Source: Diacronema lutheri
Lineage: Eukaryota; Haptophyta; Pavlovophyceae; Pavlovales; Pavlovaceae
Direction: 5' to 3'
DNA: 64,000 bases
Assembly: GCA_019448385.1 (NCBI GenBank)
Contig: JAGTXO010000031.1
Span: 64,501-128,500 of the forward strand
Shown piece by piece: positions 20,947 to 56,073 of this stretch (position 1 is its first letter; the number at the start of each line of letters is the position of its first letter). The notes below the pieces were generated by a model. It searched no databases. It was given only the letters and a program-made list of their open reading frames with translations, and had not been told where the DNA came from. Made by a program: the position numbers and the translations under genes.

Positions 20947-20977
<31 letters not shown>

Positions 20978-21485
20978 AGCCGCCGCGCGCGCCGAGCCGC
21001 GCGCGCCGCGCGCGCGCGCGGGCGGAACGGCGGCGGTGGGCGCGGCGTTCGCGTGGGTTGACGGGCCGGTTGTGCGGTGCGTGCGGCAGGGAGCATGGCT
21101 GCTACTCGAGCACGCGGACCTGTGCCCGCCCGCCGTGCTCGACCGCCTGAACGGGCTGCTCGAGGCGCCCCCCGCGCTCGCCCTCACCGAGCGCGGCGGC
21201 GGCGCGGCCGGCTGGGCGCGGCCGATCGCGCCCGCCGTTGGCTTCTGGCTCGTCGCGACGGCGGACACGAGCCGCGTCGAGCTCTCGCGCGCAGTGCGCA
21301 ACCGCTGCCTCGAGGTGTGCGCGCTGCCGCTCGAGCACGCCGCGCGCGCCGCGCGGCTGCCCGCCGCCGCCGAGGCGGCCGCCGCCGCGCTCGCGCGCGC
21401 CGCGCTCGTCGCCGTCGGCGCGCCACCGCCGGCTGCCGGCCGCGAGACACGCGCGCGCGCGCCCGAGCGCACGCCGCTGCTCGCT

Positions 21486-21531
<46 letters not shown>

Positions 21532-21538
21532 GCGACCA

Positions 21539-21571
<33 letters not shown>

Positions 21572-24284: not shown

Positions 24285-24315
<31 letters not shown>

Positions 24316-27300
24316 GCGTGGGCCCCGCGCGCCTCGGCGGCGGCGCGCCGCGCGTCGAGTGGACGGGCGTGCTGCTCGCGCACGCGGCGGAGCGCGCGAC
24401 GATCGGCGACGCCGCCGCCGCGCGGCACGCGCTGCTTCGCATCGAGGCCGGCCTCTGGCTGCGGCCGCGTGGCGCACGGCCGCCGCGCGCGCCGCTCGCG
24501 AGCGGTCGTGCGGCGCAGGCGGACGCGCTGCGCGCGCTCGCCGCGTTCGCCGCGCAGCCGGCGGCCGCGTCGGCGCTGCGCGCGCTCGGCGGCGCGTGCG
24601 ATGCGCTGCGCGCCACACGCGCCGCCGCCGCCGGCGGCGTCCGCGGCGGCGGCGGCGGCGCCTGCGCTGCGGCGCGGCGCGCGGCCGACGCGGCCGCCGC
24701 CGCCGCGGTCGACGCGTGCGAGCGCTGCGCCGACGGCCGGCTGCGCGCTGCGTGCGCAGCGCTTGCCGCGCCGCTCATCGGCGCGCTCGTCGACAGCGCG
24801 GAGGCGGACGCCGCGCGCGCGCGCGCGCGCGCCGCGTGCGCGCCGCGCGCCGCGCGCGGCCGCGGCGCGGCGGCGACCGCCGCTGCGGCCGCTGCGGCGG
24901 CCGCCGCGCGCCGCGCGGCGCTCGCGGCCGCGCGCGCCGCGGCGATCGGCGGCTGCCTGCGCTTCGAGCTGTCGCGGCTGCCGCTGCCCGTGCACCCGGC
25001 AGCCGCGCCCGCCTTCGCCGCGGCCACGCTGCGGCGCGACGCGGCCGCGCTGCGCGCCGAGCTCGACGTGCGCGCGGCGCGCGCGGCGGGCGCGGGCGAG
25101 CGGCCGCTCGGCGGCGCGGGCGCGGCGGACGGCGCGTGTGCGCGCCTCGCGCGCGCGGCGGCGCGCGCGGAGGCGAGCGCGGCCGCCGCCGCCGCGCTCG
25201 CGCCGCCGTCGGGCGCCGGCGCGGACGAGGCCGTCGGCGCGCTCTGGCGCGAGGCGCGCGCGTGGGTGTCGGGCGCGGGCGCGCCCGCGCACGTCGCCGC
25301 GCTCCTCGCGCGGCTCGGCCGCGCGGCGGACGCGGCGGCGGTGGCGGCGAACGCAGCCGGCGCCGACGACGGCGACGCGGCTGGCGCGCTCGCCGCCGAG
25401 GCGACCTGGCAGCAGGCCGCCGCCGCCGCGAGCGCGCGGCTGCTTGCGGCGGGCGGCGGCGGCGGCTCGGCGGCGCGCGCGGACGTGGCCGACGTGGCGC
25501 ACCCGCTCGCGCTCGCGCTCGGCGACGTGCGCGGCGCGCTGCGCGCCGCCGCCACCGCCGTCGCGCGCGCGCGCGAACCGTCCCTTCCGGCCACCGGCGC
25601 GCGCGCGCGCGCGCTCGCGCTTGCGCGCGCGCTGCTCGGCGGCGCGCTCGGCGAGCGCGCCGCGCGCGACGGCGGCGCGCGCGCACGCGCGCTGCCGCTT
25701 GGCGTCGCGCTGCCCGCCGCGACGGGCACGCCGCCCGCCGAGCTCGCGCGGCTGCTGCACGTCGATGCAGACGGCGCCGACGCCGGCGCAGAGGGCGCGG
25801 GCGCGCTGCATGCCGCGCTGCTCCAGGCGGCGCTCGCGGGCGTGCGCGCGCGTGTCGCCGCCGACGGCTGCCTGTCGCACGACGGCGCGGCCGCGCTCGA
25901 GGGCGCGCTGCGCGCTGGCGTCGCCGCGTGGCGCGCGCTCGACGCGCGCGCCGCGTCGCTCGAGGCCGCCGAGGCCGCGTGGTTCACGACCGCCGCGGCG
26001 CGTGCCGAGCGCGCCGGCGCGGGCGCGGGCGCGGGCGCGGGCGCAGACGGCGGCGGCGGCGCGGCGCGCGCGGCCGCCGAGGCGTCGGCGGCGGCGCTCG
26101 ACGACGTGGACGCGACGGACGAGGCGGCGGCGCGCGCCGAGGCGGATGCGCGCGCGGCCGCGGCGGCGGGTGACGACGCGCGCGCCGAGGCGGCGCAAGT
26201 GCGCGCGCTCTTCCCGGACTGGGCCGCGCAGATCAGCCGCGGCCTGCCGAGCCCGCACGCGCCCAACGCGCGCGCGCTCCTCCTCGCCGCGGCCGCCGCC
26301 GACGCGGACGCCGACGCGGGCGGCGGCGCCGCCGCCGCCGCCAGCGCCGGCGCCGACGCCGGCGCCGACGCCGCCGGCGCGGACAGCGGCACGCGTGCTC
26401 GCGCGCGCGCGCGGCCGAGCGCCGCGGCGGTGCGCGCGCTCGCGGACGTGGGCGTGCTGGGCAGGCTGCACGCGACGCACGCCGCCGTGTACGCCGCCGT
26501 CGGCGCCAGCCGCGCCGGCGCGGGCGGCGAGCGCGCGCGCGCGCTGCTCGGCGGCGCCGACGGCGGCGGGCGCGACGCGCGCGCGACGCTCAATGCCGCG
26601 GCGCGCGCGTCGGGGCTCGGCGGCGGCGCGGCGGCGCGACACGCGCCGAGCGCGTCGGTGGCGCTGCGCGCCGGCGCGCGCGCCGGCGCGGGCGCACGCC
26701 GCGCAGCGCTCGCCGGCGGGTACGCGGCCGCGTGCGCGCTCGCCGGCGCGCTGCGCGCGGCCGACGGCGCGCGCTCGGCCGCCGCGCCGCTCGTCGCGGG
26801 ATGCGAGGCGCGTGCGCTCGCGCGGCCGGCGCTCGCGCACCTCGCCGCGGCCGCGCGCACGCGCGCCGCGCTCGCCGGCCGCGCACCCGTTGCTCTCGCC
26901 GCCGGCGCGCCGCGCGGCGCGACCGCCGCGCTCGCAGCCCTCGCCGACGCGGCCGACGGCTCGCCGGCCGCCGTCGACCCTTTCCGCGCGCCCGACGTGC
27001 GCGAGGCGTGCCGCGCGCGCGCGCCGCTTGGCGCGCTCGACGCGCGCTGCGCGCAGCTGCTCGCGCAGTTCGCCGCCCACCCCGTGCTCGGCCACGTGCG
27101 CACGCTGTGCGCGCGCGTGCTCGCGTTCGAGCTGTGCGCGACGCCGCTGATGAAGGTTGCGTGCGGCGTCGAGATGGCGGTGGGCTGGGCGGAGCAGTGG
27201 GACCTCGACGCGCCCGCCGCGCTGCAGCTGCGCGCGCAGTGCGCACCGCTCGTCGGCCTCCTCCTCCGCTGGCGCCGGCGCGAGCTCGGCGCGTGGCGCG

Positions 27301-29968
27301 CGCTGCTCGGCGCGCGTGAGGCGGCGCACGGCGCGGCCGCGCGCACGCGCTGGTGGCCATCGCTGCACGCCGCGGTCGACGCGGCGCTCGGGCACGGCGC
27401 GCCCGCCGAGCCGCGCCCCGCGGCGGCGCGCGACGGCGCGGCCGCCGACGCCGGCGCGCGCGCGCTCGGCGCGTCGCTCTTCGAGAGCGCCGACGTGCTG
27501 CTCCGCGGCGCGGACGCGGGCAGCCTGCGGCCCCTCCTCGCGCTCGCGTCGCAGTTCGCGCGCCAGCTCGACGCGGAGGCGGCGCGCGCACGCGCGCAGC
27601 TCGACGAGGCGGCGCTGCGCGACGCGCTGCGCGACGCCGCCGCCGCCGGCGCGCCGGCCGCCGAGCCGGCGGCGCGCGCGCCGGCGGCGGACGCGCCGGC
27701 GGCGGCGGCGACGCCGGCGCCGGCCGGCGCAGCTGGCGCGCTCGAGCGCCGGCTCGCCGCCGCGCGCGCGTGCGGCGCGGCGCTGTGGGGCGCAATCGGC
27801 GCGCACACGCACGTGGCGCGCGCGCTCGCGCCGGCGCTCGGCGCGTTGCGCGCGCCGATCGACCGCCGGCTGCTCGACTATGAGCGCGCGTGCCGGTGGA
27901 ACGACCACTCGGCGTCCGCGCTGCGCGTCTCGACCGACTCCATGCGGCTGCAGCTCAACCGCGCGGTGCGCGAGTGGGAGCGCGCGCTGTGCACGCCCGT
28001 CGCCCTCCTCGTCGGCCTCGCGCCCGCGCGCGCGCCCGGCGCGCGTGCGGGCGCGCCCGCGCTCGCGCCCGGGCTGCACACGCACCGGCCGGTCGCGCGG
28101 GCCGCGCAGCTGCGCGCGCACGCGGCGGCGCCGCGCGCGCGCGCCGCGCCGCGCAAGGCGCGCGGTGCGGCCGTCGGCCGCGCGGCCGACGCGGGCAGCG
28201 GCGGGCATGGCGGCGTTCGCGGCGGCGCGTTCAGCCTGCTGCCCGAACTCGCGGCCGACGCGCGCGCCGCGCTGCGCGTGGCGTGCGCGCCGCGCGCGCG
28301 TAGCGGCGGCGCTGCCGCTACCGCCGCCGCCGCACCGCCCGCCGTGCCCGCCGCGCTCGTGCGCGCGCTCGGCGCACGCGGCGGCGCGCAGATCGCGCGA
28401 CCGGCGGGCGAGGTGGGCGGCAAGATGGCGGCGCTCCTCCTGCGCTCGCTGCTCGACCAGCCGGCCGACGACGCCGCCGTCGCCGTCGTGCGCGACGGCG
28501 CCGACGACGACGGCGCGCGCGCGCGCGCGCCGGCCAGCTGGCTTTGCGCTCGCGCGCTGCGCGCCGAGCTGGGCGAGGCGCTGCTGCAGCACGCGGCGTC
28601 GGCGGCGCGCGCGCTGCGCGCGCCCGCCGGCCGGCGCGCGCGCCAGCTCAAGGCGAAGCTCCTCGTCGACCTGCTCGGCGCGCTGCGCGACGCGGGCATC
28701 TCGCACCTCGCGCACGACTCGCGCGGCGCGCACAACGCGCACCTCGGCGCGCTGCTGAGCGGCGAGCGGCACGGCCGCGCGCTGCGGCTCGGCGACGCGC
28801 TGCGCGGGCTGGGCGTGCGCGCCGAGCTCGCGCGCGCGCTCGACGCGCACTGGGCGGGGTGCGAGGACGACCTGCCCGCCGTGCTGCTGCTGCTCCAGCG
28901 GCTGCGCGACGCGACGTCCGGCGCGCGCCACGCCGATCTGAGCGCGCGCGACCTTGCGCGCGCCGTCGGCCTCGCCGAGGGCGCGCTCGCCCTCGCCCTT
29001 GGTGCGCGCGCGCACGTCATCGACGCTGCCGACGGCGCCGCCGCGCTCGGCACGCAGCTGTGCCACGCCTTCTCGCGCTCCTTCGCGCCCGCCGACGACG
29101 GCCGCGCGGACGGCGGCGCTCTCGCGACGGCCGCGCTTCGCGAGAGCGCGCTGCCGCCGCAGCCGCCGCTGCGCGCTGCGCTCGCGCGCGCGATCGGCCG
29201 GCTCGCGCACCTCGGGCACGCGCTGCTCGACGGCGCGCAGCTGCTCGACGACGCGCTCGGCGCGCGCGCCGCCGAGCGCGCCGCCGACGGCGCCGACGGC
29301 GCCGACGTCGGCGCCGACGGCGCCGACGGCGCGGGCGCGTTGCGCGCCGCGCTCGTGGACGCCGGGTGCGACGGTAGCGCGGCGGTGCTCGCGCTGCGCG
29401 CCGCCGCCGAGTGCGCGCTCGAGCACGCCGACGCGTTGCGCGCGTGCGAGCCGACGGCCGCGTGCGCGCTGCTGCGCGCGCACACGCACGGCGCCGCGCT
29501 CGCCGGCGCGCTCGGCACCTGCGCGCGCGCGCTGCAGCGCGCGGCGGACGCGCTGCCTTCCGATGGCGACGGCGACGTCGCCGACTCGGACGGCGAGTCG
29601 GCGTCGGACGCGAGCGCCGACGACGGCACGGACGAGCGAGCGGGCGGCGCGCGCGATGGCGGCGCGGGCGCGTGCGCGCCGCTCCGCCGCCTCGCGGCGC
29701 GCGCCGCCGCCGAGCTGCGCGCCGACGCGGACGCGGTGCGCGCGCTGCTCGCGCCGTGCCTCGCGCCGGCCGAGCAGCGCAGCACGACCGCCGCGGAGCC
29801 CGACGGCGCGCCGGCCGCCGAGCCGGCGGTGCGCGGCGACGACGCGCGCGCGCTCGGCGCGCTCGCGCGCTCGCTCGAGGCCGCGGTCGTCGCGCTGATG
29901 CTGCGCACGCAGCGGCTGCACGCGCTCGCGACCGCGCCGCCGGACGAGGCGGACGGCGCGTCCGCGGT

Positions 29969-29999
<31 letters not shown>

Positions 30000-32991
30000 A
30001 CCGCCGCCCTCGCCGCGACGGAGGCCGACGCCGACGACGGCGAGCGCGACGCGGGCGCGGGCGAGGCGCGCGCGCGCGATGGCGGCGACTATGGCGGCGA
30101 TGGCGGCGAGCGCGACGGCAAAGCGCCGCCCGCCGACCCGGCCGCGGCGGCGGAGGCGCTCGCCGCCGCGCGCGCGGCGTTCGAGCACGCGCCAGTGCGC
30201 GCGGAGGCGGAGCACCTCGCCGCGTGCACGCGCGCGCTCGACCTGCGCGCGCTCGGCGACAGCGTCGCGCTCGCGCTCGGCGCGGCGGCCGAGGCGGCGC
30301 GCTCGCGCGAGCTCGCGTGCGCGGCTGCGGTGGGCGTCGATGCGCTCGAGGCGCCCGCGCGCGCGCTGTGCACCGCCGCGGCGCTGCCCCTGTGCGCGAG
30401 CGTCGAGCTGTACGGCGGCCTGCTCCGGCTGCTCTGCGTGCTGCTGCCGCTCTTCGCCGAGCTCGCCACCGACGGGCTGCGCGCGGCGGACGCGCCGGAG
30501 GACGGCGGCGCCGACGGCGACGAGGGCGCGAGCGGCGGGCCGGCGGGCGGCGCGCTGCAGCACGGCGTCGGGATGGGCGAGGGCGAGGGCGTGACTGACG
30601 TGACGGACCAGCTGCGCGACGCCTCGCAGCTCGAGGGGCTGCGAGGCGACGATGGCGACGGCACGGCCGAGCCGCCGCGCCCGCCGCCGCGCACCGCCGG
30701 CGCCGACGGCGAGCAGGAGCCGACGCCGCGCGGCCTCGAGGTGGGCCACGACTTCGACGGTGCGCTCGAGCCGCTCGGCGCCGACGCGGCGGGCGATGGC
30801 GCCGACGACGACGACGACGACGAGCGCCGCGCCGCCGAGCCGCCGCCCGAGGAGCGCTTCGGGCAGGACGACGGCACGGGTGAGACGGTCGACGCGCAGC
30901 TCTGGGGCGACGAGGACGAGAGCGCGGAAGATGCGGGCGCGCGCAAGGCCGACGCGGCGCTGCAAAAGGGCCGGCCGCCGCCACACCCGCGCGCCGACGC
31001 CGCCGGCGCCGACCCGCAGAGCGCGCACGGCCTCGACGCGCCCGACGACGCCAACGACGACGCGCGCGGCGACGGCGACGAGGCGGAGGGCGACGGCGCG
31101 GAGGGCGCGGGCGCGCAAAAGGCGGACGATGCCGACGCCACGCGCGACGATCGCGCCGCCGCACCGCCAAAGCCGCGCCAGGCGCCGGACGGCGGAGGTG
31201 ACGACGCCGACGCTGACGCCGAGGGCGAGGGCGACGGCGACGGCGACGGCGAGGGCGAGGGTGAGGGCGACGGCGGTGATGCGCGCGCGGACAGGAAGCA
31301 GAAGCCGGCCGGCGCCGCTGAGGCCACGCGCCAGCCGCCGATCCGCGCCGCCGACGACGCGGAGCGCGCGCGCGACGGCGCGCCCGCGGCCGCCGACGGC
31401 GCGGACGCGCTGCCGCAGGAGTTGCGGCTGGACGAGGGTGAGGACGACGGCGACGGCGACGGTGACGGCGATGGCGACGGCGATGAGGACGATGCTCGTG
31501 GCGCCGACGGTGCGGACGAGCGCGCCGCCGACCGCGAGCGCGAGCGCGGCGTGGCGGACGGCGTTGGGCGCGTGCGCGACGACCGCGCGCTGCTCCCGGA
31601 CGACGACAGCGATGGCGGCACCGGACCGGACGAGGAGGGGGGCGGCGAGGGGGAGGCGCAGGAGGGCGGCGAGGGCGACGAGGTGGCGGAGCGCGCGGGC
31701 GAGCACGAGGCGGGCGCGGACGCTGGCGAGGAGCACGGGCGCGCGGGCGGCGCGGCGGCCGCGCCGGCGACCGCCGCGGACGCGCGCGGAGCGCGCGCCG
31801 ACGCCGACGCTGACGCCGACGCCGCCGACGCGGACGCGGACGGCAAAGCGGCGGACGGCGCGGATGGCGCGGACGGGCGCGACGGCGAGCCCATGGACGT
31901 GGATGTGGACATTGACGGCACGGGCGACAAGGCAGACGACACGATGGCTGCCGCTGCCGACCAAAACGAGAACGGGGCGGACGACGCCGAGGCGCACGGC
32001 GCGCCCGCGGCGGACGCGGCCGACGGCGCGCGCGCGGATGCGCGCGCGCGCGTGCGCGGGCTGGAGGGCGCGCCGTCCGCCGCCGAGGGTGCGGATGGCA
32101 GCGCGGAGCAGCTGATGCCCGCCGGCGGCGCGCCGCCGTCCGCCGCGCGCGCGCCGCCGCCGCTGCCGCAGCCTGAGCTGGGCGCCGCTGCGCCCGCGCG
32201 CCGGCCGCCCGTGCGGCCGCGGCCGAGCGCCGCCGAGCAGGTGGCCGCTACGGACGGTACGGCGGGCGTGGACGCGGGCGCGGACGCGGCCGACGCGGCG
32301 GCCGCTGCCGACGATGGCGGCACCGACGATGCGCCGCCGGCTGCGCAATTTGCGCGCGCTGCCGCGGCCGACGACGACGATGACGCGCGCCGCGCGGGCG
32401 GCGGCTCCTTCGCGGACGCGCCGCGCGGCGGCGGTGCCGGCGCGCAGCAGGCGCCGCGGCCGGCCGGTGCGCCGCCGTCCGGCGGCCGGCGCGCACCGGA
32501 CCCCGCGTCGCTCGGCGCGGGCGAGCTTGGCGATGCGCGGCGGCAGTGGCACGAGCGGCTGCGGCTGCTGCAGGAGGAGGCGGACGCGCAGGCCGAGGCG
32601 GAGGGCGCGGCGGTCGACGCGGCGGCCGACGCGGCGGCCGACGCGGACGCGGTCGCCGCCGACGACGCCGACGGCGTGGACGATGGCGGCATGTTTGCGC
32701 GCGCGAGGCGCGGCGAGGCTGCAGACACGCAGGCGCTCGCCGACGCGACCGCGGAGCAGCGCGCCGCGCAGCTCGCCGCGATGCGCGAGCGCAACGCGCA
32801 GGCGGGCGCAGCCAACGCCGCCGCGCACGGCGACGAGCGCGAGGGCGAGGCCGTCGACGCGGACGCGGGCGCGGACGCGGCGGGTCGCAGCGCACACGAT
32901 GGCGGCGGCGGCGCTGACGAGCAGCGCGATGCGCCGCGCGCCGCGACGCGCTCGCGCGCGCAGCTCATACCCGCCGCCGAGCGACGCGCCG

Positions 32992-46868: not shown

Positions 46869-47903
46869 ATGACGAGATCGCACCCGGCGACGGCGTCGCT
46901 GCACCCCAGGCAAGCGCCGTACGGCGCGGATGAGGGCGCGGGTGGGCCCGAGAGCTACGTCACCACGAACCAGCGCGAATTTGCCGAGCGCGACCTCGCG
47001 CAGGCGCACCGCGCGCCCGTGCGCGCGGCCGACCTGCCGGCGCGGCCGCTGCCGTACGGGATCGAGGTGGGCGCCGACTCGCTTGAGCGGTTCGTCACAA
47101 CCCACCGCGCGCAGTATGCGCCACGCGATCCGCGCGACGGCAGCATCGGTCGTCGCGAGGCCTTTGACTTCAAGGGCCGCCCCGTCCCGTACGCGTTTGA
47201 CGTGGGCCACGAGAAAAGGGGCAGCTACGAGACGACGCACCAGAGCCAGTTCCAGCCGCAGCTCTTCGACCTGTCGCAGGCGCGCGTGCCCATCTCGCCG
47301 CAGTCCAACTACTTTGGCCGGCCGCTCCCCTATGCCTCGCAGCCCGAGACCGACGGTGCCGACCGGTGGCAGTCGAGCGCCCAGCGCCACTTCGTGCCGC
47401 GCGACCTCGCGCTCGCGCGCCCGACCGAACGCTTGAAGCACGACGCGGCGTACAACCTCATCACGCTCGAGCCGAATCCAACGTTCGCGCCCGCCGTCGC
47501 CGAGCCGCGCGGCCGCACCGCCGCGCTCGGCATCACGCGGCCAGTCGGCGTCAACCCGCTGCCCGCGTCGCGCCAGACCGAGCGCCACTTCGTGCAGTGG
47601 GCGGACACGTTCTGCACGAATCCGCTCACCGCGCACGCGTACACGTCGGCCGCGCAGCTGCGCGAGGACGTGAGCAAGCACACGATCACGCAGCCGCCGT
47701 CGAGCAAGCATCACCAGCCCGTCACCGAGGCGCACCGTGTCGGCTGGCCGCAGCCGACGGGCGAGCGCTCTCCGATCAAGGAGGCGTACCACGGGAGGCA
47801 CGTATCGTTCATCACCAAGCAGCAGGAGAGCCTCAAACTCCACGGGCGCACCATCTTCAGCGGTGCGCTGCAGCAGAACGGGCCAATCCGCGCGATCATC
47901 TGA
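46869..47903 (+). CDS. Axonemal-type repeat protein (putative microtubule-inner/associated protein)
   Basis: 344 residues. Four degenerate units of ~55 residues: (G/A)RP(L/V)PYxx(E/D)VG followed by (S/R)(Y/F)xTT(N/H)Q(R/S)xFxPRD. Examples are ESYVTTNQREFAERD, RFVTTHRAQYAPRD, SYETTHQSQFQPQ and RWQSSAQRHFVPRD. Short YxTTxxxxF modules recur in proteins that line or bind ciliary doublet microtubules (SAXO/CFAP types). The C-terminal part, PVTEAHRVGWPQPTGERSPI and SFITKQQESLKLHGRTIF, is not repetitive and looks conserved. There is no signal peptide. A flagellar role fits a flagellate alga. The family call is pattern-based, not an alignment. The stop is convergent with the LTA4H-like gene, 70 bp apart. 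Confidence 0.72.
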   Translation: MTRSHPATASLHPRQAPYGADEGAGGPESYVTTNQREFAERDLAQAHRAPVRAADLPARPLPYGIEVGADSLERFVTTHRAQYAPRDPRDGSIGRREAFDFKGRPVPYAFDVGHEKRGSYETTHQSQFQPQLFDLSQARVPISPQSNYFGRPLPYASQPETDGADRWQSSAQRHFVPRDLALARPTERLKHDAAYNLITLEPNPTFAPAVAEPRGRTAALGITRPVGVNPLPASRQTERHFVQWADTFCTNPLTAHAYTSAAQLREDVSKHTITQPPSSKHHQPVTEAHRVGWPQPTGERSPIKEAYHGRHVSFITKQQESLKLHGRTIFSGALQQNGPIRAII

Positions 47904-47973
47904 AAGCCAGTCTCGCGGAGCTCGAGCCTGGGCTGGAAAGCCTTTGCCTGCCCACCCGCCGGTCGCCCCCGCC

Positions 47974-49899
47974 TCACGCGCGCAGCCCGAGGTCGAGCGC
48001 GAGCATGTGCTGCGCGATCGGGTGGTAGTTTGCGCGCCACGCCTGGAAGGCGGGCAGCGCGGCCGCGCGCCCCTCCTCGCTCTGGCACAGGTCGCGGAAG
48101 AGCGGCCGCACGTACTTCATCCGCCCGTTCGACTTGAGGAACGAGAGGATCTCGCGCAAGAAGGACGTGCCGCCGCCCGACTGCGCGAGGCACAGCCTGT
48201 AGAAGCGGAACGCCTCCTCGCAGTTCACCGCGCCGCGCTGGTCACCCGCCGCGCTGCCAAAGGCGTACAGCGATGCGAGGCGCTGCAGCTCGGCGTCGCC
48301 CAACGGCGCACGGCCGGCGCCGCCGTCGCGCGCGGCGCGCACCTCGTCGAGCAGCTTGTCGAGGAAGACCTGCCGCTGCAAGCTGCTCCAGCCGCGCACG
48401 TCGGCCGGCGAGCCGTCGGCCGCCTGCCCCATCGCCCAGCGGCTCGCGAGCTGCGCGGACGCGAGCGCGAGGCTCTCGTCGAACGGCGCGATGCTTGGCG
48501 GCATGCCGGGCGCGTGCAGCCAGCGCTGCCAGTCGATGGCACGCACCTGCGCGCCGCGCCCGCTCGCGTCCGCCCAGTGCAGCGCAAACTCGCAAAAGTC
48601 GTCGGTCGAGATCGCGCGCGCCTTGAACTTTTGAATATAGGCGCGGAAGAAGGCGCGCATGGGCTCGTCGCCGCCGAGCTGCTGCGCGAGGTGTGAGAGG
48701 AGCAGAAAGCCCTTCTCGTACGGCACGCGCGAGAAGGCGTCGTCCGGGTCGACGCCGCCCGCCAGGCTGGGCACGAGGCGCGTGAGCTCGGGCCGGGCCG
48801 TCTGGTGCGTGATGTCCTCGCGCAGCGCCTTCACGCCGCACAGCGCGTGCAGGCCGTAGAGCGCGCCGCCGTCGGCACCGCCGCCCGCGGCGCGCGTGAC
48901 AAGGTTGCGCTCCATCCAGACCGTCCACCCCTCGTTGAGCCAGAAGTGCTCCCACGAGGCGTTGGTGACAAGGTTTCCCGTCCACGAGTGGGACACCTCA
49001 TGCGCGATGACGCCCACGAGCGAGCGGTCGCCGGCGAGGAGCGTGGGCGTGCAGAAGGTGAGGCATGGGTTCTCCATCCCGCCGTACGGGAACGATGGCG
49101 GCAAGCAGAGCACGTCGTAGATCCCCCATGCGTACGGCTCCTGCGCCAGCTCCTCCGCGAGGGCGAGAAACCGTTCCGTGTCCTGCCCAAATTCGGACGC
49201 AACCGCGCCGACGACGCATGGCTCCGCCCACGCGGTCGAGCGCGGGCCGATGGGGCGGCCTTCAAGCTCGCCGACGGCGAGCGCGAGGAGGTAGGCGGGC
49301 ACGCGCATCGGCTGCGCGAACGTGAACGCGCGGCGCGCGCCGCCGTCGACGGGCGAGGGCGCGCCGCCCGCCGTGCGCTGCGCGCTCATGAGCGCTGTCG
49401 CCCACTCGGGCACGCGCGCCGTGGCCTCGTACGTGAACTTGGCGCTCGGCGTGTCCTGGCACGGCAGGAGCGCGCGCGCGTGGATCGCCTGGCACTGCGT
49501 GAACAGGTACGGGTGAGCCTTGCCCGCCGTCTGCTCGGCCGGCAGCCACTGCACCGCCGAGCTTGCCGGCCCGGCCTCGGATATAACCTCGAGCTCGAAG
49601 CGCGATCCGGCGGCGCGGAGCTGCTCGGGGAGCGGCACAGTGAGCGCCGCGCCGAAGACGTCCGACTCGACGCCCATCGAGTGCGCGACTGGCGCGCCGT
49701 TCAGCCGGACCGACGAGACGGCCACCTTCTTGGCGTCGAGGATGATGGCCTCCGCGCCGCCGGCCGCGAGCACGCGGCAGCGCCACGTCGCGACCACGCG
49801 GAGCGAGCTCGCGCCAAAATCGACGTCGAGCGCCAAGGTGAGGTGCTCGAGCGCGACCTCCGCAAAGTTGGAGGCAGACGACGGGTCGACGACGGGCAT
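47974..49899 (-). CDS. LTA4H: Leukotriene A4 hydrolase-like M1 aminopeptidase
   Basis: 641 residues (human LTA4H 611). Zinc metallopeptidase of family M1 removing N-terminal residues; the family may also carry an epoxide hydrolase activity. Domains in order: N-terminal beta domain; LFTQCQAIHARALLPCQDTP; substrate-binding PYGGMENPCLTFCTP; zinc site HEVSH (H300, E301, H304) with E323 in HFWLNEG; and a C-terminal armadillo-like helical domain including FLLLSHLAQQLGG and VRGWSSLQRQVFLDKLLDEV. All catalytic residues are present. Single exon, no targeting peptide, so a cytosolic protein is inferred. The start codon is 156 bp from the divergent CobS gene. Confidence 0.95.
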   Translation of the reverse strand: MPVVDPSSASNFAEVALEHLTLALDVDFGASSLRVVATWRCRVLAAGGAEAIILDAKKVAVSSVRLNGAPVAHSMGVESDVFGAALTVPLPEQLRAAGSRFELEVISEAGPASSAVQWLPAEQTAGKAHPYLFTQCQAIHARALLPCQDTPSAKFTYEATARVPEWATALMSAQRTAGGAPSPVDGGARRAFTFAQPMRVPAYLLALAVGELEGRPIGPRSTAWAEPCVVGAVASEFGQDTERFLALAEELAQEPYAWGIYDVLCLPPSFPYGGMENPCLTFCTPTLLAGDRSLVGVIAHEVSHSWTGNLVTNASWEHFWLNEGWTVWMERNLVTRAAGGGADGGALYGLHALCGVKALREDITHQTARPELTRLVPSLAGGVDPDDAFSRVPYEKGFLLLSHLAQQLGGDEPMRAFFRAYIQKFKARAISTDDFCEFALHWADASGRGAQVRAIDWQRWLHAPGMPPSIAPFDESLALASAQLASRWAMGQAADGSPADVRGWSSLQRQVFLDKLLDEVRAARDGGAGRAPLGDAELQRLASLYAFGSAAGDQRGAVNCEEAFRFYRLCLAQSGGGTSFLREILSFLKSNGRMKYVRPLFRDLCQSEEGRAAALPAFQAWRANYHPIAQHMLALDLGLRA

Positions 49900-50055
49900 G
49901 GTGCTAGCTCGGGAGCACCACAGAACTCGTTTTTAGATTTTTGGGTTTTCGCACGCGCGCACGTCCACGGCGCGGCGCGGCACAACTCGCACCCCGGTGT
50001 TGCAGGTCGGCACGTCGGAGGTGGGCCCGCAGGCCGAGGCGAGCGGCGGCGAGCC

Positions 50056-51165
50056 ATGGCGCCGAACAACGCGCTGCGTGACAAGTCGGCGGAGGAGAAG
50101 GAGGGCCTGCAAGCCAAGGCGAGCGGCGAGTCGTGGGGCATGGTGAGCGCGGCCGAGGTGCGTGCGCGCGGGACCGGCACGACGGCCTCGCCGATCGACG
50201 AATTCGTCGCGGCCGAGAATTCGGAGCTGCGGTGCTTCTTCACAGGCATGATGTTCGTCACGCGCCTGCCCTGCCCCGGCTGGTGCGACCACCACCCAGG
50301 CTACCTGATGCGCGCGATGGCCTGGTTCCCGGCGCTCGGCGCGCTCATCGGGCTCTGGGTCGCGGCGTTCGCCGACGCGGCCGCGACGCTCGTGCAGCCG
50401 CCGGTCGCGGCCGCCTTCTCGACGGGCGCGTCGCTCTGGCTCACCGGCTGCTTCCACGAAGACGGCCTGGGCGACACGCTCGACGGCTTTGGCGGCGGCT
50501 GGAGCAAGGCGCAGATCCTGCGCATCATGAAGGACTCGCGCATTGGCACGTACGCGTGCGTCGGCCTCTGCCTGTACACCGTGTCGAAGGTGCTGCTTCT
50601 CGGCGAGCTCGGGCCCTCGACGTGGGCGCTCGGCGCGTGCAGCGGGCAGGGCCCCGCGCTGGTCGTCGCGCATGCCGTCGCGCGCGCGTCGTCCGCGCCG
50701 TTGCTCTATTGCGTCGAGTACGTCGTCGATGCGGATGACGCTAAGTCGGACTACTACGGCTGGTTTGGCCGCTCGAGGGAGCTGCTCACGCTGCCCAGGC
50801 TCCTCTTCGCGCTGAGCACGGCCGTCGGCGTCGCCCTCGCTGTCCTCGGCCCGTGCGCGCGCGCGGCGGCCGTGCTGCTCGGCGCGGCGTGCGCGACGGC
50901 GGTCGCCGGCGCGTACGGCCGCTCCGTGATTGGCGGTGTGATGGGCGACTTCCTCGGCGCGACGGTCTGCTCGATCGAGCTCGCCATCTACGCCGCGCTC
51001 ACCGTCGACTCGCGCAGGCTGTTCGAGGCCGCCGCCGAGCGCGGCTGGATGAGCGCGCTCCGCCCTTTTGTGATGCTTGCGCTCGCGCTCTGCACGCCGC
51101 GGCTGTGGACGCTCGGCGCGAATCGCGCGACCAAGCCCGGGAAGGCGGAGGCCAAGGAGTGCTAG
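50056..51165 (+). CDS. cobS: Cobalamin-5'-phosphate synthase CobS (adenosylcobinamide-GDP ribazoletransferase)
   Basis: 369 residues. Joins AdoCbi-GDP with alpha-ribazole (phosphate) to complete the lower nucleotide loop of vitamin B12. An N-terminal soluble extension (~1-55) precedes FTGMMFVTRLPCPGW. The family signature HEDGLGDTLDGFGGG (H134, D136, D140, D143) is followed by IMKDSRIGTYA and several hydrophobic helices, typical of this polytopic membrane enzyme. SVIGGVMGDFLGATVCS near residue 290 is the conserved second loop. Bacterial CobS proteins are ~250 residues; the surplus is the N-terminus and tail. Codon use matches neighbours, so it is resident, not contamination. The next gene on the strand is CobT, 569 bp away, which makes the alpha-ribazole-phosphate used here. 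Confidence 0.93.
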   Translation: MAPNNALRDKSAEEKEGLQAKASGESWGMVSAAEVRARGTGTTASPIDEFVAAENSELRCFFTGMMFVTRLPCPGWCDHHPGYLMRAMAWFPALGALIGLWVAAFADAAATLVQPPVAAAFSTGASLWLTGCFHEDGLGDTLDGFGGGWSKAQILRIMKDSRIGTYACVGLCLYTVSKVLLLGELGPSTWALGACSGQGPALVVAHAVARASSAPLLYCVEYVVDADDAKSDYYGWFGRSRELLTLPRLLFALSTAVGVALAVLGPCARAAAVLLGAACATAVAGAYGRSVIGGVMGDFLGATVCSIELAIYAALTVDSRRLFEAAAERGWMSALRPFVMLALALCTPRLWTLGANRATKPGKAEAKEC

Positions 51166-51734
51166 GCTTTAAGTGCTAGCGCGCTGCGGCGGCGGGGTCC
51201 TGGCCATCTTGGGAACCCGGGGCCGGCACGGCGACACCGTCCGCGACGCTGCCGTCCGCTGCCGGCTCACCGAGCGTGTGGCTTGTTCGGCTGGGAATCG
51301 ACGATGTCGGTGGCCTCGTACCGCTCGATGGTGGCGCGGACGATCGACTCCGTGAGCGTGTCGGTGGATGTGTGGAGGTCATCCGCGATCCTCACCGCGC
51401 TCCTGCCGAGAAAATAGCCGCCACAGGATGATCTTCATGACCTCGACCGAGAGCCGGTGCCCGCGACCGACGCCGATGATGACGCCGCTCGCGGCGCTGC
51501 GGCCGCGCCGCCTGCACGTGTCGCGGTTATGAGAGCGGGGTTCCCGGGTATGTCAGGAACCCCCACGCGCAGCGGCGACACGCATAGCGCGACACGCACC
51601 GCGCCACCTCCCGCGGGGCCGACGCGACGCGCGCGCGCACCTCTCGCGGCCATTTTCGCTTTTTCGCGCGCGGGTCTCTCCTATTCCTTCGTCCGCGAAC
51701 TCAGACCCAACGGGCAGTAGCCCGGGCCCCGGCC
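51166..51734. other. Spacer between CobS and CobT
   Basis: 569 bp that should hold the CobS 3' end and the CobT promoter. It contains a degenerate helix-turn-helix-like reading frame on the minus strand (51267-51475). Nothing else was recognised. Confidence 0.5.
51267..51475 (-). pseudogene. Degenerate helix-turn-helix (Tc1/IS630-type transposase-like) fragment
   Basis: Two frames on the minus strand read LSVEVMKIILW and then, after a one-base shift near 51420, YFLGRSAVRIADDLHTSTDT followed by IVRATIERYEATDIVD and a stop at 51267. The spacing of a helix, an IADxLxxS turn, and a second helix ending in RYEATD is that of a transposase HTH. No catalytic domain is nearby. The reading is weak; a chance match in GC-rich DNA is possible. 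Confidence 0.35.
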
Positions 51735-53156
51735 ATGGGTGCGGCTCTCGGAATAATGGAGCGCGACGAGCACGAGCGCGCGCTCGAAGCTGCCCGGGCG
51801 CGCCTGCGCGCGCTGGCCAAGCCGGTCGGGTCGCTCGGTGCCCTCGAAGACTGGGCGGCGCGCCTCGCCGCGCTGCAGCGGCCGTACTGGCCGGCCGCAG
51901 ACCGGCCGGCGGCGAGCGTGCGCGCGCCCGCGCTGCTCGTCTTTGCCGCCGACCACGGCTGCGTGCTTGCCCACCCGTCGCTCTCGGCATTCCCGCGCGC
52001 CGTCACCCTCGCCATCTTCCGCACAATCGCGGCCGGCGGCGCCGCGAGCGCCGTGCTCGCCAAGGCCAACGGCGCATCCCTCGAGCTGATCGACGTCGGC
52101 GTCGACGGCGATACGTCCACCGCCGGCCGCGCGGACGCGGCCTACGGCGACGTTGCCGGCGGCGCGCGCGCGCGCGACGATAAGCGGTCACCGTCTGAAG
52201 AGCGGGGCGTTGGCTCGGAGGCGGAGCGCCGCCCGCTGCCGACCGAGTGGGTCAGCCACGCCGCGCCGCACGTGCGCGTGCTCGTGCGCAAGGTGGCGCC
52301 GTATGGAACAGCCAACAGTGGCACTGCGCCCGCGATGAGCCGAGCGCAGTGCGCGGCGGCGATGGCGGAGGGCGCCGCCGCTGTGCGCCGAATTGTCGCA
52401 CGGGCACTGCCCGCCGACGACAACGACGTCGGCCTGTCCGCCGCCGCAACCGAAACGGGCGCCGCCAGCGCCGCCGCCGCTGCTGAAGGCGAGCGCGAGG
52501 CCGGCCGCGATCGTGCGCGCGCCGCGCGCGCGCGTCGGCAGGAGCGCGGCGCCAACGTGGTCTGCCTGGGTGAGCTCGGGATTGGCAACACAACCGCCGC
52601 GGCTGCCCTTCTCGTCGCGCTCGCGCGACCGCTGCCCGCGGATACCACACGGGCGCCCGCGCCGCGCCAGCCGCTGCGTGCGGTCGACGCCGTCGGCGTG
52701 GGCACTGGATTGGACGAGGCCGCGCGCCTCGCCAAGGCAGCTTTCGTCGAGCGCGCGCTCGCGCGGCACGCGCAGCTGATCGCGGCGGAGGGCGCACTCG
52801 GCGCGCTGCGCGCGCTCGGCGGCCTTGAGCTCGCGGCGATGGCCGGCGCGGTGATCGAGGCCGCGCGGCTGCGCGTCGCGGTCGTCATCGACGGCTTCAT
52901 TGCCGGCGCGGCGGCGCTTGCGGCCATCCGGCTCGCGCCGAGCGCGGCCGCCGCCCTGTTCATCTCGCACCGCTCGGCGGAGCGCGGCGCGTCCGCGCTC
53001 GCCGCGCAGCTGCAGGCAGCGGGCTGTGGCCCGGCTGCGCTCGACCTTGGGATGCGGCTTGGCGAGGGCACGGGCTCTCTCGTTGCTCTGGGCGTACTAC
53101 GCAGCGCTGCGGCTGTGCTTGAAATGGCCACGCTGCAGGAGGCGACGGCGCTGTGA
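51735..53156 (+). CDS. cobT: Nicotinate-nucleotide-dimethylbenzimidazole phosphoribosyltransferase CobT
   Basis: 473 residues (bacterial CobT ~350). Transfers phosphoribose from nicotinate mononucleotide to 5,6-dimethylbenzimidazole, giving alpha-ribazole-5'-phosphate for CobS. Evidence: KPVGSLGALEDWAARLAALQ, FAADHGC, VAPYGTANSGTAPAMSRAQC, ELGIGNTTAAAALL, GVGTGLD, VVIDGFIAGAAALAAI, and MRLGEGTGS with the catalytic base Glu444. All are in family order. Extra length lies in two Ala/Arg-rich insertions (~125-170 and ~240-270). The start is the ATG at 51735; ATG at 51756 is equally possible. There is no clear organelle leader. It is consecutive with CobS on the same strand. The catalytic set is complete, so the protein should be active. 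Confidence 0.95.
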   Translation: MGAALGIMERDEHERALEAARARLRALAKPVGSLGALEDWAARLAALQRPYWPAADRPAASVRAPALLVFAADHGCVLAHPSLSAFPRAVTLAIFRTIAAGGAASAVLAKANGASLELIDVGVDGDTSTAGRADAAYGDVAGGARARDDKRSPSEERGVGSEAERRPLPTEWVSHAAPHVRVLVRKVAPYGTANSGTAPAMSRAQCAAAMAEGAAAVRRIVARALPADDNDVGLSAAATETGAASAAAAAEGEREAGRDRARAARARRQERGANVVCLGELGIGNTTAAAALLVALARPLPADTTRAPAPRQPLRAVDAVGVGTGLDEAARLAKAAFVERALARHAQLIAAEGALGALRALGGLELAAMAGAVIEAARLRVAVVIDGFIAGAAALAAIRLAPSAAAALFISHRSAERGASALAAQLQAAGCGPAALDLGMRLGEGTGSLVALGVLRSAAAVLEMATLQEATAL

Positions 53157-53221
53157 GACGCGCTCATGAAGCTGACATGGCCCTGTGTCTTCCTTCAGCG
53201 CACGCCAGCGCCGCTGCTCTG

Positions 53222-54163
53222 TCATCGGCTCGCCGCCTTGCCCGCGGCGGCCGACGCCGCCGCGCGCGCGCCCGCGAGCGTGCGCGGGCTGAGCGCGGCA
53301 CCGGCGTGCAGTTTGCCCGCCTCGGTAGGCGCGGGCAGCGTGCATACGCCAATCCTGCGCTCGGACAGCGCCGAGCCGCTCGTCGCGAGCCACCCGTCGT
53401 CGTCCGACGGCGCGCCGCCGCCCTCGTCTGCGTCCGACAGGCGCTCGGCGTCACCGCGCGGCGCGGCGCGCTGGGCGAAATGGGACAGGTCGTCGGCGTA
53501 GCTGAGGTACATGCCGAGCATGCAGCCGATTGCGAGCCACTGGTGCCCCGCGCCCACCTGCATGCGCGCCCGCGGCGAGCCGAGCTGCGCGCCCGCCATC
53601 TGGACGGGCAGCGCGAGCACGGGCGCGGAGACGAAAACGAGCCGGAGCGTGCGCGCGCGCGCGAGGCGCGCGGAGGCGCGGTGGCGCGGCGAGCGGCCGT
53701 ACGCGTGGATGGAGACGAGGCCGTGCAGCCATGACGACGTGAAGAAGACGAGCGCGCCGAAGCCGTGCACGAACGACTCGCGCTGGATCTCGGCGCCGCC
53801 GAGCATGCACGCGACGCAGTCGCGCTGCAGCGGCACTGCGCCGAGCAGGCCAAGTCCGGCGGCGCCAACGATGGCGAGGACGGCCGCGGCGGCGATCTCG
53901 CAGCGCAGCCAGCGCTCGAAGCGCGGCAGCGCGCGCTCGACGTACAGCACGATGCAGCACGCGAGGAGGAGCGCGGTGCTCACAAACCCGACCTGGAACA
54001 CTCGCCGCTCCGCGCCCGTGCAGCCGAGCAGAGAGATCTGCACGATGTGCAGCCAATCGGGCACGTCGCCGTTGGTGCGCGCGAGCGCGTAGCACGAAAA
54101 GATCGTGGTCACGGCGGTGGCCGCCGTCAAGGCCGGCAGGCCGTGCTCAAGCGACACGCGCAT
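53222..54163 (-). CDS. Frag1/DRAM/Sfk1-family membrane protein
   Basis: 313 residues with about six hydrophobic helices in the first ~240. The order of WLHIVQISLLGCTGAERRVF, FQVGFVSTALLLACCIVLYV, ESFVHGFGALVFFTSSWLHG and HQWLAIGCMLGMYLSYADDL matches the Frag1/DRAM/Sfk1 family. These are multi-span proteins of the Golgi, lysosome or plasma membrane involved in GPI-anchor remodelling, autophagy or phosphoinositide control. The C-terminal ~75 residues are soluble, acidic then Ala-rich, and probably cytosolic. Which branch it belongs to cannot be told. It is convergent with CobT, 65 bp between stops. Confidence 0.8.
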   Translation of the reverse strand: MRVSLEHGLPALTAATAVTTIFSCYALARTNGDVPDWLHIVQISLLGCTGAERRVFQVGFVSTALLLACCIVLYVERALPRFERWLRCEIAAAAVLAIVGAAGLGLLGAVPLQRDCVACMLGGAEIQRESFVHGFGALVFFTSSWLHGLVSIHAYGRSPRHRASARLARARTLRLVFVSAPVLALPVQMAGAQLGSPRARMQVGAGHQWLAIGCMLGMYLSYADDLSHFAQRAAPRGDAERLSDADEGGGAPSDDDGWLATSGSALSERRIGVCTLPAPTEAGKLHAGAALSPRTLAGARAAASAAAGKAASR

Positions 54164-54257
54164 CCGGCGACCGACCTGACCTGACCGCGAACGAGCACTC
54201 CTCCGCCCTCCGGAAAAGTGGACAGTCTTGATGATTTTTCAGCAGGGCCTCTGTGAA

Positions 54258-55856
54258 ATGGCGAGATTACATCGGAACGTCGTGCGGAGCGCGGCGATCT
54301 GGCTCGTCGCGCTCTGCACGGTGTCGGACGGCAGGGGTGCGCCGGGCGCGCGCGCGGATGCGCGCAGGGCCGATGCGCGCGCCAGCGGCCGCGCGCGAGC
54401 CGGCGCGTCGCCGCCGCCGCGCGGCGCGCCGGCGCGACGGGCTGAGCAGCCGGCGGCAAGCGGCGCGCCGCCGCCGCAGCCGATGCGCGACCGGCGCGTG
54501 GCGCGGTACATTGGGCGGGTGAGCATCGCGGGTGCGATCTCGTGCAGCGCCACGCACTCGCTCGTCGTGCCGCTCGACGTGATCAAGACGCGCATGCAGA
54601 CCGACGCGCAGCTGACGACGGTGCGCGCGGCCGCGCTCGCCGTGCTGCGCAGCGGGCCGGGCAAGGGGCCGATCCGCGCGGTCGCCTTCTTCAAAGGTCT
54701 CGGCGCGACAAGCGCGGGCTACTGGCTGCAGGGCGCGGCCAAGTTTGGTGCGCGCCGCGAGCCGCGCGCCGCGCGCCGTACGCCGTGCGCCGCGAGTCGG
54801 CGCGTCGCGCTGCTCACGGCGCGCGCCGTGCCGCGCGCCGCGCGCCGCGCTGCGGGCCGGCCGCGCGGAACGGGCAGGCGGGTACGAGGCGCTGAAGAAC
54901 GCCGCTTTCACGCGCCTCCGCGCGCTGCCCAATGGCGAGGAGGCGTGCGCCGCGTGGCGTTTGCCCGTGATGGTGGCCTCTGCGTTCGGCGCCGAGGCCG
55001 TCGCGTCGGCGTTGCTCTGCCCGCTCGAGGTGCGCGGCGAGCGCACGCGTGCGCGCGCCGTGGCTCGACGCGCGCCATCGCTCAGAGCGCGCCGGCCATG
55101 CATCTGCGCGCTCAGCCCCGGAGCTCCAACCGCCGCCATTTTCCTGCCCGTCGCACGGGCCCCGCCGCCCCCGCCCGCTGCCCTGCCCCTCCTCGCCGGT
55201 CGCAGGTGCTCAAGTTACGCATCCAGACGGACTCGAGCTACGCCGCTCGCGGCCTGCTCTGCGCACTGAGCAGCACCGTGCGCTCCGAGGGCTTTGGCGC
55301 GCTTTTCAAAGGGCTCTCCGCCATCTGCCTCCGCCAATTACCCTACACGGCGGTAAAACTCGTTACATACGAGTTCTTCACGACGCTCGTGCTCTCCGCC
55401 GCAGTCCGCGCGCGGCTCGTCGAGCGCGCGGACCCCGCGCACGCCGGCACCGTCGCAGCGCGACCGCTCGTCTCGCTCGCAGCGGGAATGCTCGCGGGCG
55501 CAGCGGCGGCGCTCGCGTCGCAGCCGGCGGACGTGCTGCTCACGCGGCTGTGCGGGTCGGCGCAGGTCTCTCAGCTCTCGTCGTGCGTGATCGCGACGGG
55601 CTGGGCGGAGCAGCTGCGCTACCTCGCGTCCATCGGGCTGCGCGAGTGCTACGCCGGCCTCGGCGCGCGCCTCGCGATGGTCGCGTCCATGACCTCCGTC
55701 CAGTTCCTGCTGTACGACCAGGTTCGAATTCAGCTCAACTGCGCGGGGCCGGTACCCAGAAACGACGCCGTTGGCGCGTGCGCGCGCGCGGCGGACGGCG
55801 CGCGGAAGGGTGCGACTGCCGAGTCGGGCGGCGACGGTCTCTGCCACGACCCGTGA
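54258..55856 (+). CDS. Mitochondrial carrier family, phosphate-carrier (SLC25A3) type, three exons
   Basis: 430 residues from exons 54258-54747, 54878-55029 and 55206-55856. The first intron is phase 1, the second phase 0. Repeat 1 has ATHSLVVPLDVIKTRMQTD and FFKGLGATSAGYWLQGAAKF continuing GGYEALK; repeat 2 has LLCPLEVLKLRIQTD and LFKGLSAICLRQLPYTAVKL; repeat 3 has ASQPADVLLTRL. These are the hallmarks of the phosphate/copper carrier branch, which imports phosphate with protons; repeat 3 lacks the usual Lys/Arg there, as in that branch. The N-terminus (MARLHRNVVRSAAIWLVALC...) is long, with a hydrophobic segment and an Arg/Ala-rich stretch to ~80, so signal-type targeting, perhaps to the plastid, cannot be excluded. 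ATG 54231 is an alternative start. Confidence 0.88.
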   Translation: MARLHRNVVRSAAIWLVALCTVSDGRGAPGARADARRADARASGRARAGASPPPRGAPARRAEQPAASGAPPPQPMRDRRVARYIGRVSIAGAISCSATHSLVVPLDVIKTRMQTDAQLTTVRAAALAVLRSGPGKGPIRAVAFFKGLGATSAGYWLQGAAKFGARREPRAARRTPCAASRRVALLTARAVPRAARRAAGRPRGTGRRVRGAEERRFHAPPRAAQWRGGVRRVAFARDGGLCVRRRGRRVGVALPARGARRAHACARRGSTRAIAQSAPAMHLRAQPRSSNRRHFPARRTGPAAPARCPAPPRRSQVLKLRIQTDSSYAARGLLCALSSTVRSEGFGALFKGLSAICLRQLPYTAVKLVTYEFFTTLVLSAAVRARLVERADPAHAGTVAARPLVSLAAGMLAGAAAALASQPADVLLTRLCGSAQVSQLSSCVIATGWAEQLRYLASIGLRECYAGLGARLAMVASMTSVQFLLYDQVRIQLNCAGPVPRNDAVGACARAADGARKGATAESGGDGLCHDP

Positions 55857-56073
55857 CATCCGCCGTGAGCTGGCGTCGGCGTCTAGCGTGCTCCGCTCCG
55901 CCGGCAGGCGGGCGCGCTGCGCCCGTAGAAAGGAGCACTGGGCGCGGTCGATCGACCTAGGCCGCCACGCACCATGACAGCAGTCAGTCACGGGCTCACG
56001 GCGATGCCCGCTGGCCCACCGTCAATGTGACCTGTGTGGGTGTGACCGTCGGACCGCCGTCCACTTGCTCGCG

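Follow-up and report, generated by a model that had tools for sequence, protein, structure and literature searches.

The closest described counterpart of the locus considered here comes from the same species: Pavlova lutheri (Diacronema lutheri) has COBT, COBS and COBC transcripts and grows on pseudocobalamin supplied together with dimethylbenzimidazole (DMB) (Helliwell et al. 2016, PMC4850488; this and the other publications below are cited from excerpts). In the reactions concerned, CobT converts DMB to alpha-ribazole phosphate, CobS links this product with adenosylcobinamide-GDP, and the phosphate is taken off by a CobC-like enzyme (PMC8092220). So how are the genes for these enzymes arranged in the nuclear genome of such an alga? 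In the window analysed here, a stretch of 64,000 nucleotides of D. lutheri (assembly GCA_019448385.1, contig JAGTXO010000031.1, positions 64,501 to 128,500 of the forward strand), CobS and CobT follow each other on the same strand, as a preliminary description of this DNA had noticed, and nearly all of the DNA that separates them is the end of a transposon (Table 1). We consider it quite probable that these are two nuclear haptophyte genes for lower-loop assembly that are separately transcribed, with a transposon between them. The enzymes and the phenotype, including the pseudocobalamin remodelling to which the preliminary description alluded for Pavlova, are already published for P. lutheri (PMC4850488); what looks new is the side-by-side position of the genes and the transposon fragment between them. 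In the openly licensed papers that were consulted, without their supplementary tables, eukaryotic linkage of CobS and CobT is not reported, and the main text of the D. lutheri genome paper does not mention cobalamin, with B12 appearing only as a reference label (PMC8379373).

The CobS frame matches PF02654 over positions 2-206 of 207 in the profile (E 2.7e-41, 142.5 bits against a cut-off of 23.2; the scan used the shorter frame 50137-51165), and it contains the motifs HEDGLGDTLDG (E-D-G-x-x-D-x-x-D) and IMKDSRIG (I-M-K-D-S-R), with the residues spelled out in the two patterns conserved in all 14 aligned rows, so that the earlier description of a full-length CobS bearing the first motif is borne out. 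Profile searches of the genome, carried out exon by exon in six frames at E 0.001 over 43,492,796 bases on 103 contigs, a procedure that short or intron-rich genes can escape, place PF02654 at this CobS and nowhere else. Both ends of the protein look intact because its N-terminus (MAPNNAL) and its C-terminus (KEC) are common to the pavlovalean relatives. A sequence search of solved structures with CobS returned none related at E 0.001, and activity as a cobamide-5'-phosphate synthase is what the sequence would predict. Among the 78 algal CobS matches with a Met start and at least 300 aa (taken from the best 120 of 194), MAPN is present in the first 60 residues of 43 (here at 50056-50076) and a C-terminal Cys (KEC, KDC, SC and the like; here at 51151-51162) in 41; the two features are possibly involved in targeting or lipid attachment.

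CobT matches PF02277 with E 5.5e-76 (256.4 bits against a cut-off of 22.6), and the two pieces that this profile finds genome-wide both belong to this one gene, which was also the only one returned when the genome was searched with another algal CobT (P0243). Residue 444 is the Glu of RLGEGTG, in agreement with the preliminary description, and all 15 aligned CobTs have it; we take it to be the catalytic base. Sequence comparison relates the protein to CobTs of solved structure, 1wx1_A being the best match (E 1.5e-32), and the conversion of DMB to alpha-ribazole phosphate is its predicted activity. The reading frame includes four low-complexity stretches, each missing from at least three of the four nearest aligned relatives, that are either real inserts or in-frame, retained introns. 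CobT starts with MGAALG (51735-51752) and several other pavlovalean-type CobTs with MGSTAS, MGGASS and MGAGPS, that is, with Met-Gly and small residues, a start that is not found in P0122, P0125 and P0126. Such a start presumably resembles an N-myristoylation signal and could place CobT at a membrane beside CobS. A metagenome protein of 604 aa (P0286) combines CobT with a PF00300 histidine-phosphatase domain in a CobT-CobC-like fusion.

Both families are widespread in bacteria, and the GC content at third codon positions (GC3) of CobT, 0.848 (0.86 without the inserts), is under the 0.93 of the two tested neighbouring genes, so that the local base composition claimed for the pair holds for CobS (0.935) and less well for CobT. 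Could the locus then be a bacterial contaminant or part of a chimaeric contig? The nearest named relatives, however, are algal. Among the matches listed, the named CobS most similar to that of D. lutheri belongs to Pavlovales sp. CCMP2436 (71%), and those at lower rank come, with the groups to which we assign them, from Prorocentrum (dinoflagellate), Discosporangium (brown alga), Guillardia (cryptophyte), Astrephomene (green alga), the diatoms Thalassiosira and Skeletonema, and Hondaea (thraustochytrid); the protein searches comprised the best 120 of 194 matches for CobS, and the best 120 of 4048 and of 5385 for CobT. The CobS tree of 107 rows (the 78 matches mentioned above, two chosen manually, and 27 drawn from 80 bacterial loci) separates the 80 protein-search rows from the 27 bacterial CobS with a Shimodaira-Hasegawa-like approximate likelihood ratio (SH-aLRT) support of 100, with the caveat of long bacterial branches, foremost that of L098. 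Trees of CobT were built from 84 rows and, more carefully, from 45, the latter being the source of the clade supports: the 17 eukaryotic-type rows form one clade (100/100), and six pavlovalean-type rows group together (100/98). Unnamed metagenome rows are called eukaryotic because they are placed among named eukaryotic ones. Thus, the phylogenies that the preliminary description had proposed put both proteins with algal ones. In combination with neighbouring genes of eukaryotic type and a published long-read assembly at ~315x coverage (PMC8379373), they leave next to no credence for contamination or chimaerism, which we regard, on sequence grounds, as already refuted by the trees and the neighbours. 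The eukaryotic-type CobTs stand apart from the operon-linked bacterial ones, yet a joint clade is not rejected by the approximately unbiased test (p-AU 0.153), and we do not claim a separate bacterial donor for CobT. Nor do we propose a viral origin or linkage: when viral contigs were searched with CobS, a single one of 29 stretches (L129) contained a CobS-like piece, short and located at the end of its contig, and a search with CobT found none in 44 stretches.

A genome-wide search with the spacer finds 39 other copies that match it from 51183 to ~51719 at 98-100% identity (40 were scored of 106 candidates, the window copy among the 40). The inverted repeats of two full copies (Table 1) are 99.8-100% identical and their ends begin TACTGCCCGTTGGG, the terminal TA of which may represent a duplicated TA target. 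The repeat in the spacer is a fragment of a terminal-inverted-repeat (TIR) DNA transposon of ~2.75 kb from a very uniform family. A transposase was looked for in three long frames from a single full copy; no Pfam match fell below E 0.5, and one sub-threshold match, EGF-like, had E 0.53. We had also considered a 5'-truncated long interspersed nuclear element (LINE), a candidate that was dropped when the supposed truncation of copy L012 turned out to be a one-base shift and inverted terminal repeats were found. In the window copy the CobT-side end is intact and the CobS-side inverted repeat is gone. The DNA of the spacer that does not belong to the transposon amounts to about 17 + 15 = 32 bp (~51166-51182, with the left edge accurate to about 3 bases, and 51720-51734), or to 53 bp if the second Met is the CobT start. 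Since one transposon end is missing, the figure of 32 bp does not measure the ancestral distance, and a 569-bp spacer that is almost wholly transposon carries little information on the original spacing. The 23 other same-strand gaps on the contig range from 65 to 5029 bp by nearest ATG, all above 32 bp, one of them turning into -17 when counted from the first in-frame ATG; this survey covered 258 kb of the contig with a crude codon-usage caller, and a stricter run (12 pairs) and a looser one (24) both included CobS-CobT.

Two head-to-tail genes with only ~32 bp of non-transposon spacer invite the question of whether CobS and CobT share one bicistronic, operon-like transcript. The CobS start context is GCCATGG, strong by the Kozak standard, a consensus not derived from D. 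lutheri, and, with all frames considered and the ATG of CobS included, 22 ATGs occur up to the start of CobT, of which the spacer contributes 9. In green-algal bicistronic genes, the start contexts of the first open reading frame (ORF1) are weak, few initiation codons precede ORF2, the inter-ORF medians in two algae are 40 and 183 nt, to which the short own spacer here is comparable, and the median ORF1 in one of the two algae is 291 nt, against 1,110 bp for CobS (PMC11291117). The spacer is, moreover, now filled by the transposon fragment. Because of the strong start context and the 22 ATGs, a bicistron translated by leaky scanning appears unlikely; a shared transcript of any operon-like kind strikes us as quite improbable, and separate transcription as the more likely arrangement. 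The preliminary description had argued against a bicistron from the 569-bp spacing; the distance is correct, but ~537 bp of it is repeat, and the start context and the ATG count make the better argument. If the two genes are transcribed separately, transposon DNA would have to supply most of the CobS 3' end and of the proximal promoter of CobT.

How, then, did the two genes become neighbours? There is no target duplication to be seen across the window copy, the longest shared word being 4 bases, and an 8-base direct repeat (AGTGCTAG) stands at the CobS side of the transposon junction. These features are compatible with a recent accident, in which a transposon copy lying upstream of CobT was involved in a deletion or translocation whose second breakpoint fell just past the CobS stop, so that the one-ended element, intact towards CobT and devoid of its other inverted repeat, would be the scar and the linkage would have no function. 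The comparison with relatives points in the same direction: Pavlovales sp. CCMP2436 has its CobS on a contig of 438,860 bp, and a CobT whose label breaks off after '[Pavlovales', taken as coming from the same strain, is on one of 345,670 bp (one contig is listed for each). Three metagenome contigs of the pavlovalean clade that exceed 8 kb (P0002, P0004, P0122) show no partner gene by the listed contig sizes, which is weak evidence because only the longest contig per protein cluster is listed. Chance adjacency of one named pair has a probability of ~2/14,446 genes, which speaks against an accident, although this figure overstates the surprise because many pathway pairs could have caught notice.

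A pair of database entries would make an accident in D. lutheri the second coincidence of its kind. The CobS entry jgi/Tetstr1/425333/TSEL_015782 and the CobT entry jgi/Tetstr1/425334/TSEL_015783 are consecutive in both number series, which makes the two genes likely neighbours; we read the tag Tetstr1 as Tetraselmis striata, and take Tetraselmis to be a green alga. The synteny comparison suggested by the preliminary description has, accordingly, a mixed outcome, with the genes unlinked in the Pavlovales relative and probably linked in Tetstr1. The consecutive numbers, the intact ends of both CobS and CobT beside the transposon, and a residual spacer (by either choice of the CobT start) shorter than the 23 other same-strand gaps are in line with an old, selected algal CobS-CobT pair, kept or re-formed for co-expression or joint inheritance, into which the transposon came later. 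The adjacency in Tetraselmis is read from gene numbers only, however, and the pair is not found together in the Pavlovales relative. Furthermore, CobT is in the fetched flank of 69 of 80 bacterial CobS loci and lies upstream of CobS in 69 of 69, in a sample biased to bacteria with algal-like CobS and with a short flank for some of the other 11; the order in D. lutheri is the reverse, which means that simple retention of such a bacterial operon does not account for the pair. We presume the order in Salmonella to be cobU-cobS-cobT. For D. lutheri, we tentatively lean, by a little, to the accident, which we hold to be possible rather than probable, over the old selected pair, a possibility of which we are more doubtful.

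The two adjacent nuclear genes probably serve the remodelling of pseudocobalamin. MetH was found in pieces on contig C71 and MetE was not detected genome-wide (controls positive in 10 of 14 genomes; a METE-like fusion was not searched for), a combination that fits B12 dependence, and a gene of the corrinoid adenosyltransferase family is present on contig C30. The preliminary description had advised a search for missing partners elsewhere: CobC-like matches occur at 28 places, the best of them on contig C33 with 122.3 bits and all under the family cut-off of 162.9, and none of the 28 is on the contig of CobS and CobT, whereas CobU went undetected altogether. Three BluB matches in the genome are all under the cut-off (the control gave a match in all 14 genomes and exceeded the cut-off in 3 of them), and we make no claim of a DMB synthase.

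Several observations weigh against this interpretation. There are no matches genome-wide to CobU (PF02283; control genomes positive in 6 of 14, and an intron-rich gene could escape), CbiB (PF03186; 8 of 14) or CbiZ (PF01955; 5 of 14), which leaves the pathway, on paper, with a gap at the supply of adenosylcobinamide-GDP. One study discounted a possible METE transcript of a P. lutheri strain as contamination, and it also mentions a METE-like fusion protein in haptophytes (PMC11439496). The NCBIfam models name the same function for CobS and CobT as Pfam without reaching their cut-offs, CobS scoring 177.5 of 273 bits on NF001277 and 87.3 of 110 on TIGR00317, and CobT 252.4 of 319.3 bits on TIGR03160, a score that the low-complexity inserts may depress. 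Finally, the truncation of the transposon may have removed flanking DNA, so that the original CobS-CobT spacing is not recoverable.

The scenario that we favour, of two separately transcribed nuclear genes for lower-loop assembly, would run as follows. CobT would activate DMB to alpha-ribazole phosphate, CobS would join this to adenosylcobinamide-GDP, and a CobC-like phosphatase encoded elsewhere in the genome would complete the rebuilding of the lower loop of pseudocobalamin whenever DMB is available. Both enzymes would be expressed from separate head-to-tail genes. A transposon of the very uniform family would have been fixed between them, or at the breakpoint that joined them, and would then have lost its CobS-side end, the remnant making up nearly all DNA from the CobS stop to the CobT start, so that transposon sequence probably harbours both the 3' end of CobS and the proximal promoter of CobT. 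A more ambitious version, which we consider unlikely, is that CobS-CobT linkage is repeated or ancient in unrelated algae (Diacronema, Tetraselmis) and aids a remodelling module that dispenses with CobU, CbiB and CbiZ and is fed by an undescribed corrinoid route, with the transposon end in D. lutheri carrying the CobS terminator together with the CobT promoter.

The genes around the pair are of eukaryotic type on both sides, as had been stated before: a gene resembling M1-family aminopeptidases upstream, its start codon 156 bp from that of CobS, and downstream a Frag1/DRAM-like gene, whose stop is separated from that of CobT by 65 bp, followed by a mitochondrial carrier gene, the frame of which probably reads through one or more introns. 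A scan of 47500-56000 with Rfam gave no family at the gathering threshold and no RNA regulatory element. The published genome comprises 43,502,671 bp on 103 contigs, sequenced with PacBio to ~315x at 73.25% GC, with 14,446 genes, 45% of them single-exon (PMC8379373). Far over that mean, GC reaches 84-87% at 20001-30000 of the window.

Table 1. Coordinates of the CobS-CobT locus and of full copies of the transposon; positions are those of the window unless a locus prefix is given
Feature	Position	Strand	Details
M1-family aminopeptidase / LTA4 hydrolase-like gene	47974..49899	-	PF01433, PF09127, PF17900; divergent upstream neighbour of CobS
CobS, adenosylcobinamide-GDP ribazoletransferase / cobamide-5'-phosphate synthase	50056..51165	+	369 aa, one open frame
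CobS-CobT spacer	51166..51734	.	569 bp, from gene coordinates
Transposon end, 440-bp terminal inverted repeat + 97 bp	51183..51719	.	537 of 569 spacer bases
CobT, nicotinate-nucleotide:DMB phosphoribosyltransferase	51735..53156	+	473 aa, one open frame, four low-complexity inserts
CobT low-complexity inserts	52173-52250, 52404-52454, 52467-52538, 52632-52676	+	in frame
Frag1/DRAM/Sfk1-like membrane protein gene	53222..54163	-	PF10277, E 1.4e-14; convergent with CobT
Mitochondrial carrier gene	54228..55856	+	PF00153 in three stretches
Full transposon copy	L130:7119-9878		2760 bp, 440-bp inverted repeats
Full transposon copy	L031:1523-4272		2750 bp, 440-bp inverted repeats

In ecological terms, the conversion of cyanobacterial pseudocobalamin to usable B12 by algae shapes dependencies within the plankton, and a linked CobS-CobT locus in a published genome offers a single target for knock-out and expression work. 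Should strains that lack the transposon exist beside those that have it, CobT expression would be expected to differ between the two kinds if the transposon carries the CobT promoter. The question of corrinoid supply also becomes sharper: by what route is adenosylcobinamide-GDP obtained in an organism that has CobS and no detectable CobU, CbiB or CbiZ?

Compared with the known systems, the locus has the same enzymes, with the same proposed role, as the COBT, COBS and COBC of P. lutheri and Chlamydomonas reinhardtii; the work on P. lutheri used transcripts, to which the genomic linkage and the transposon are added here (PMC4850488). With the nuclear bicistrons of green algae it shares two head-to-tail frames and little spacer of its own, and differs from them in the strong first start, the many intervening ATGs and the transposon in the spacer (PMC11291117). 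TSEL_015782 and TSEL_015783 of Tetstr1 are likewise a CobS and a CobT, consecutively numbered, in a green alga and with an adjacency taken from the numbers alone. Bacterial cobT-cobS clusters bring the same two genes close together, in 69 of the 80 CobS loci, with CobT upstream of CobS, whereas in D. lutheri CobS is upstream of CobT.

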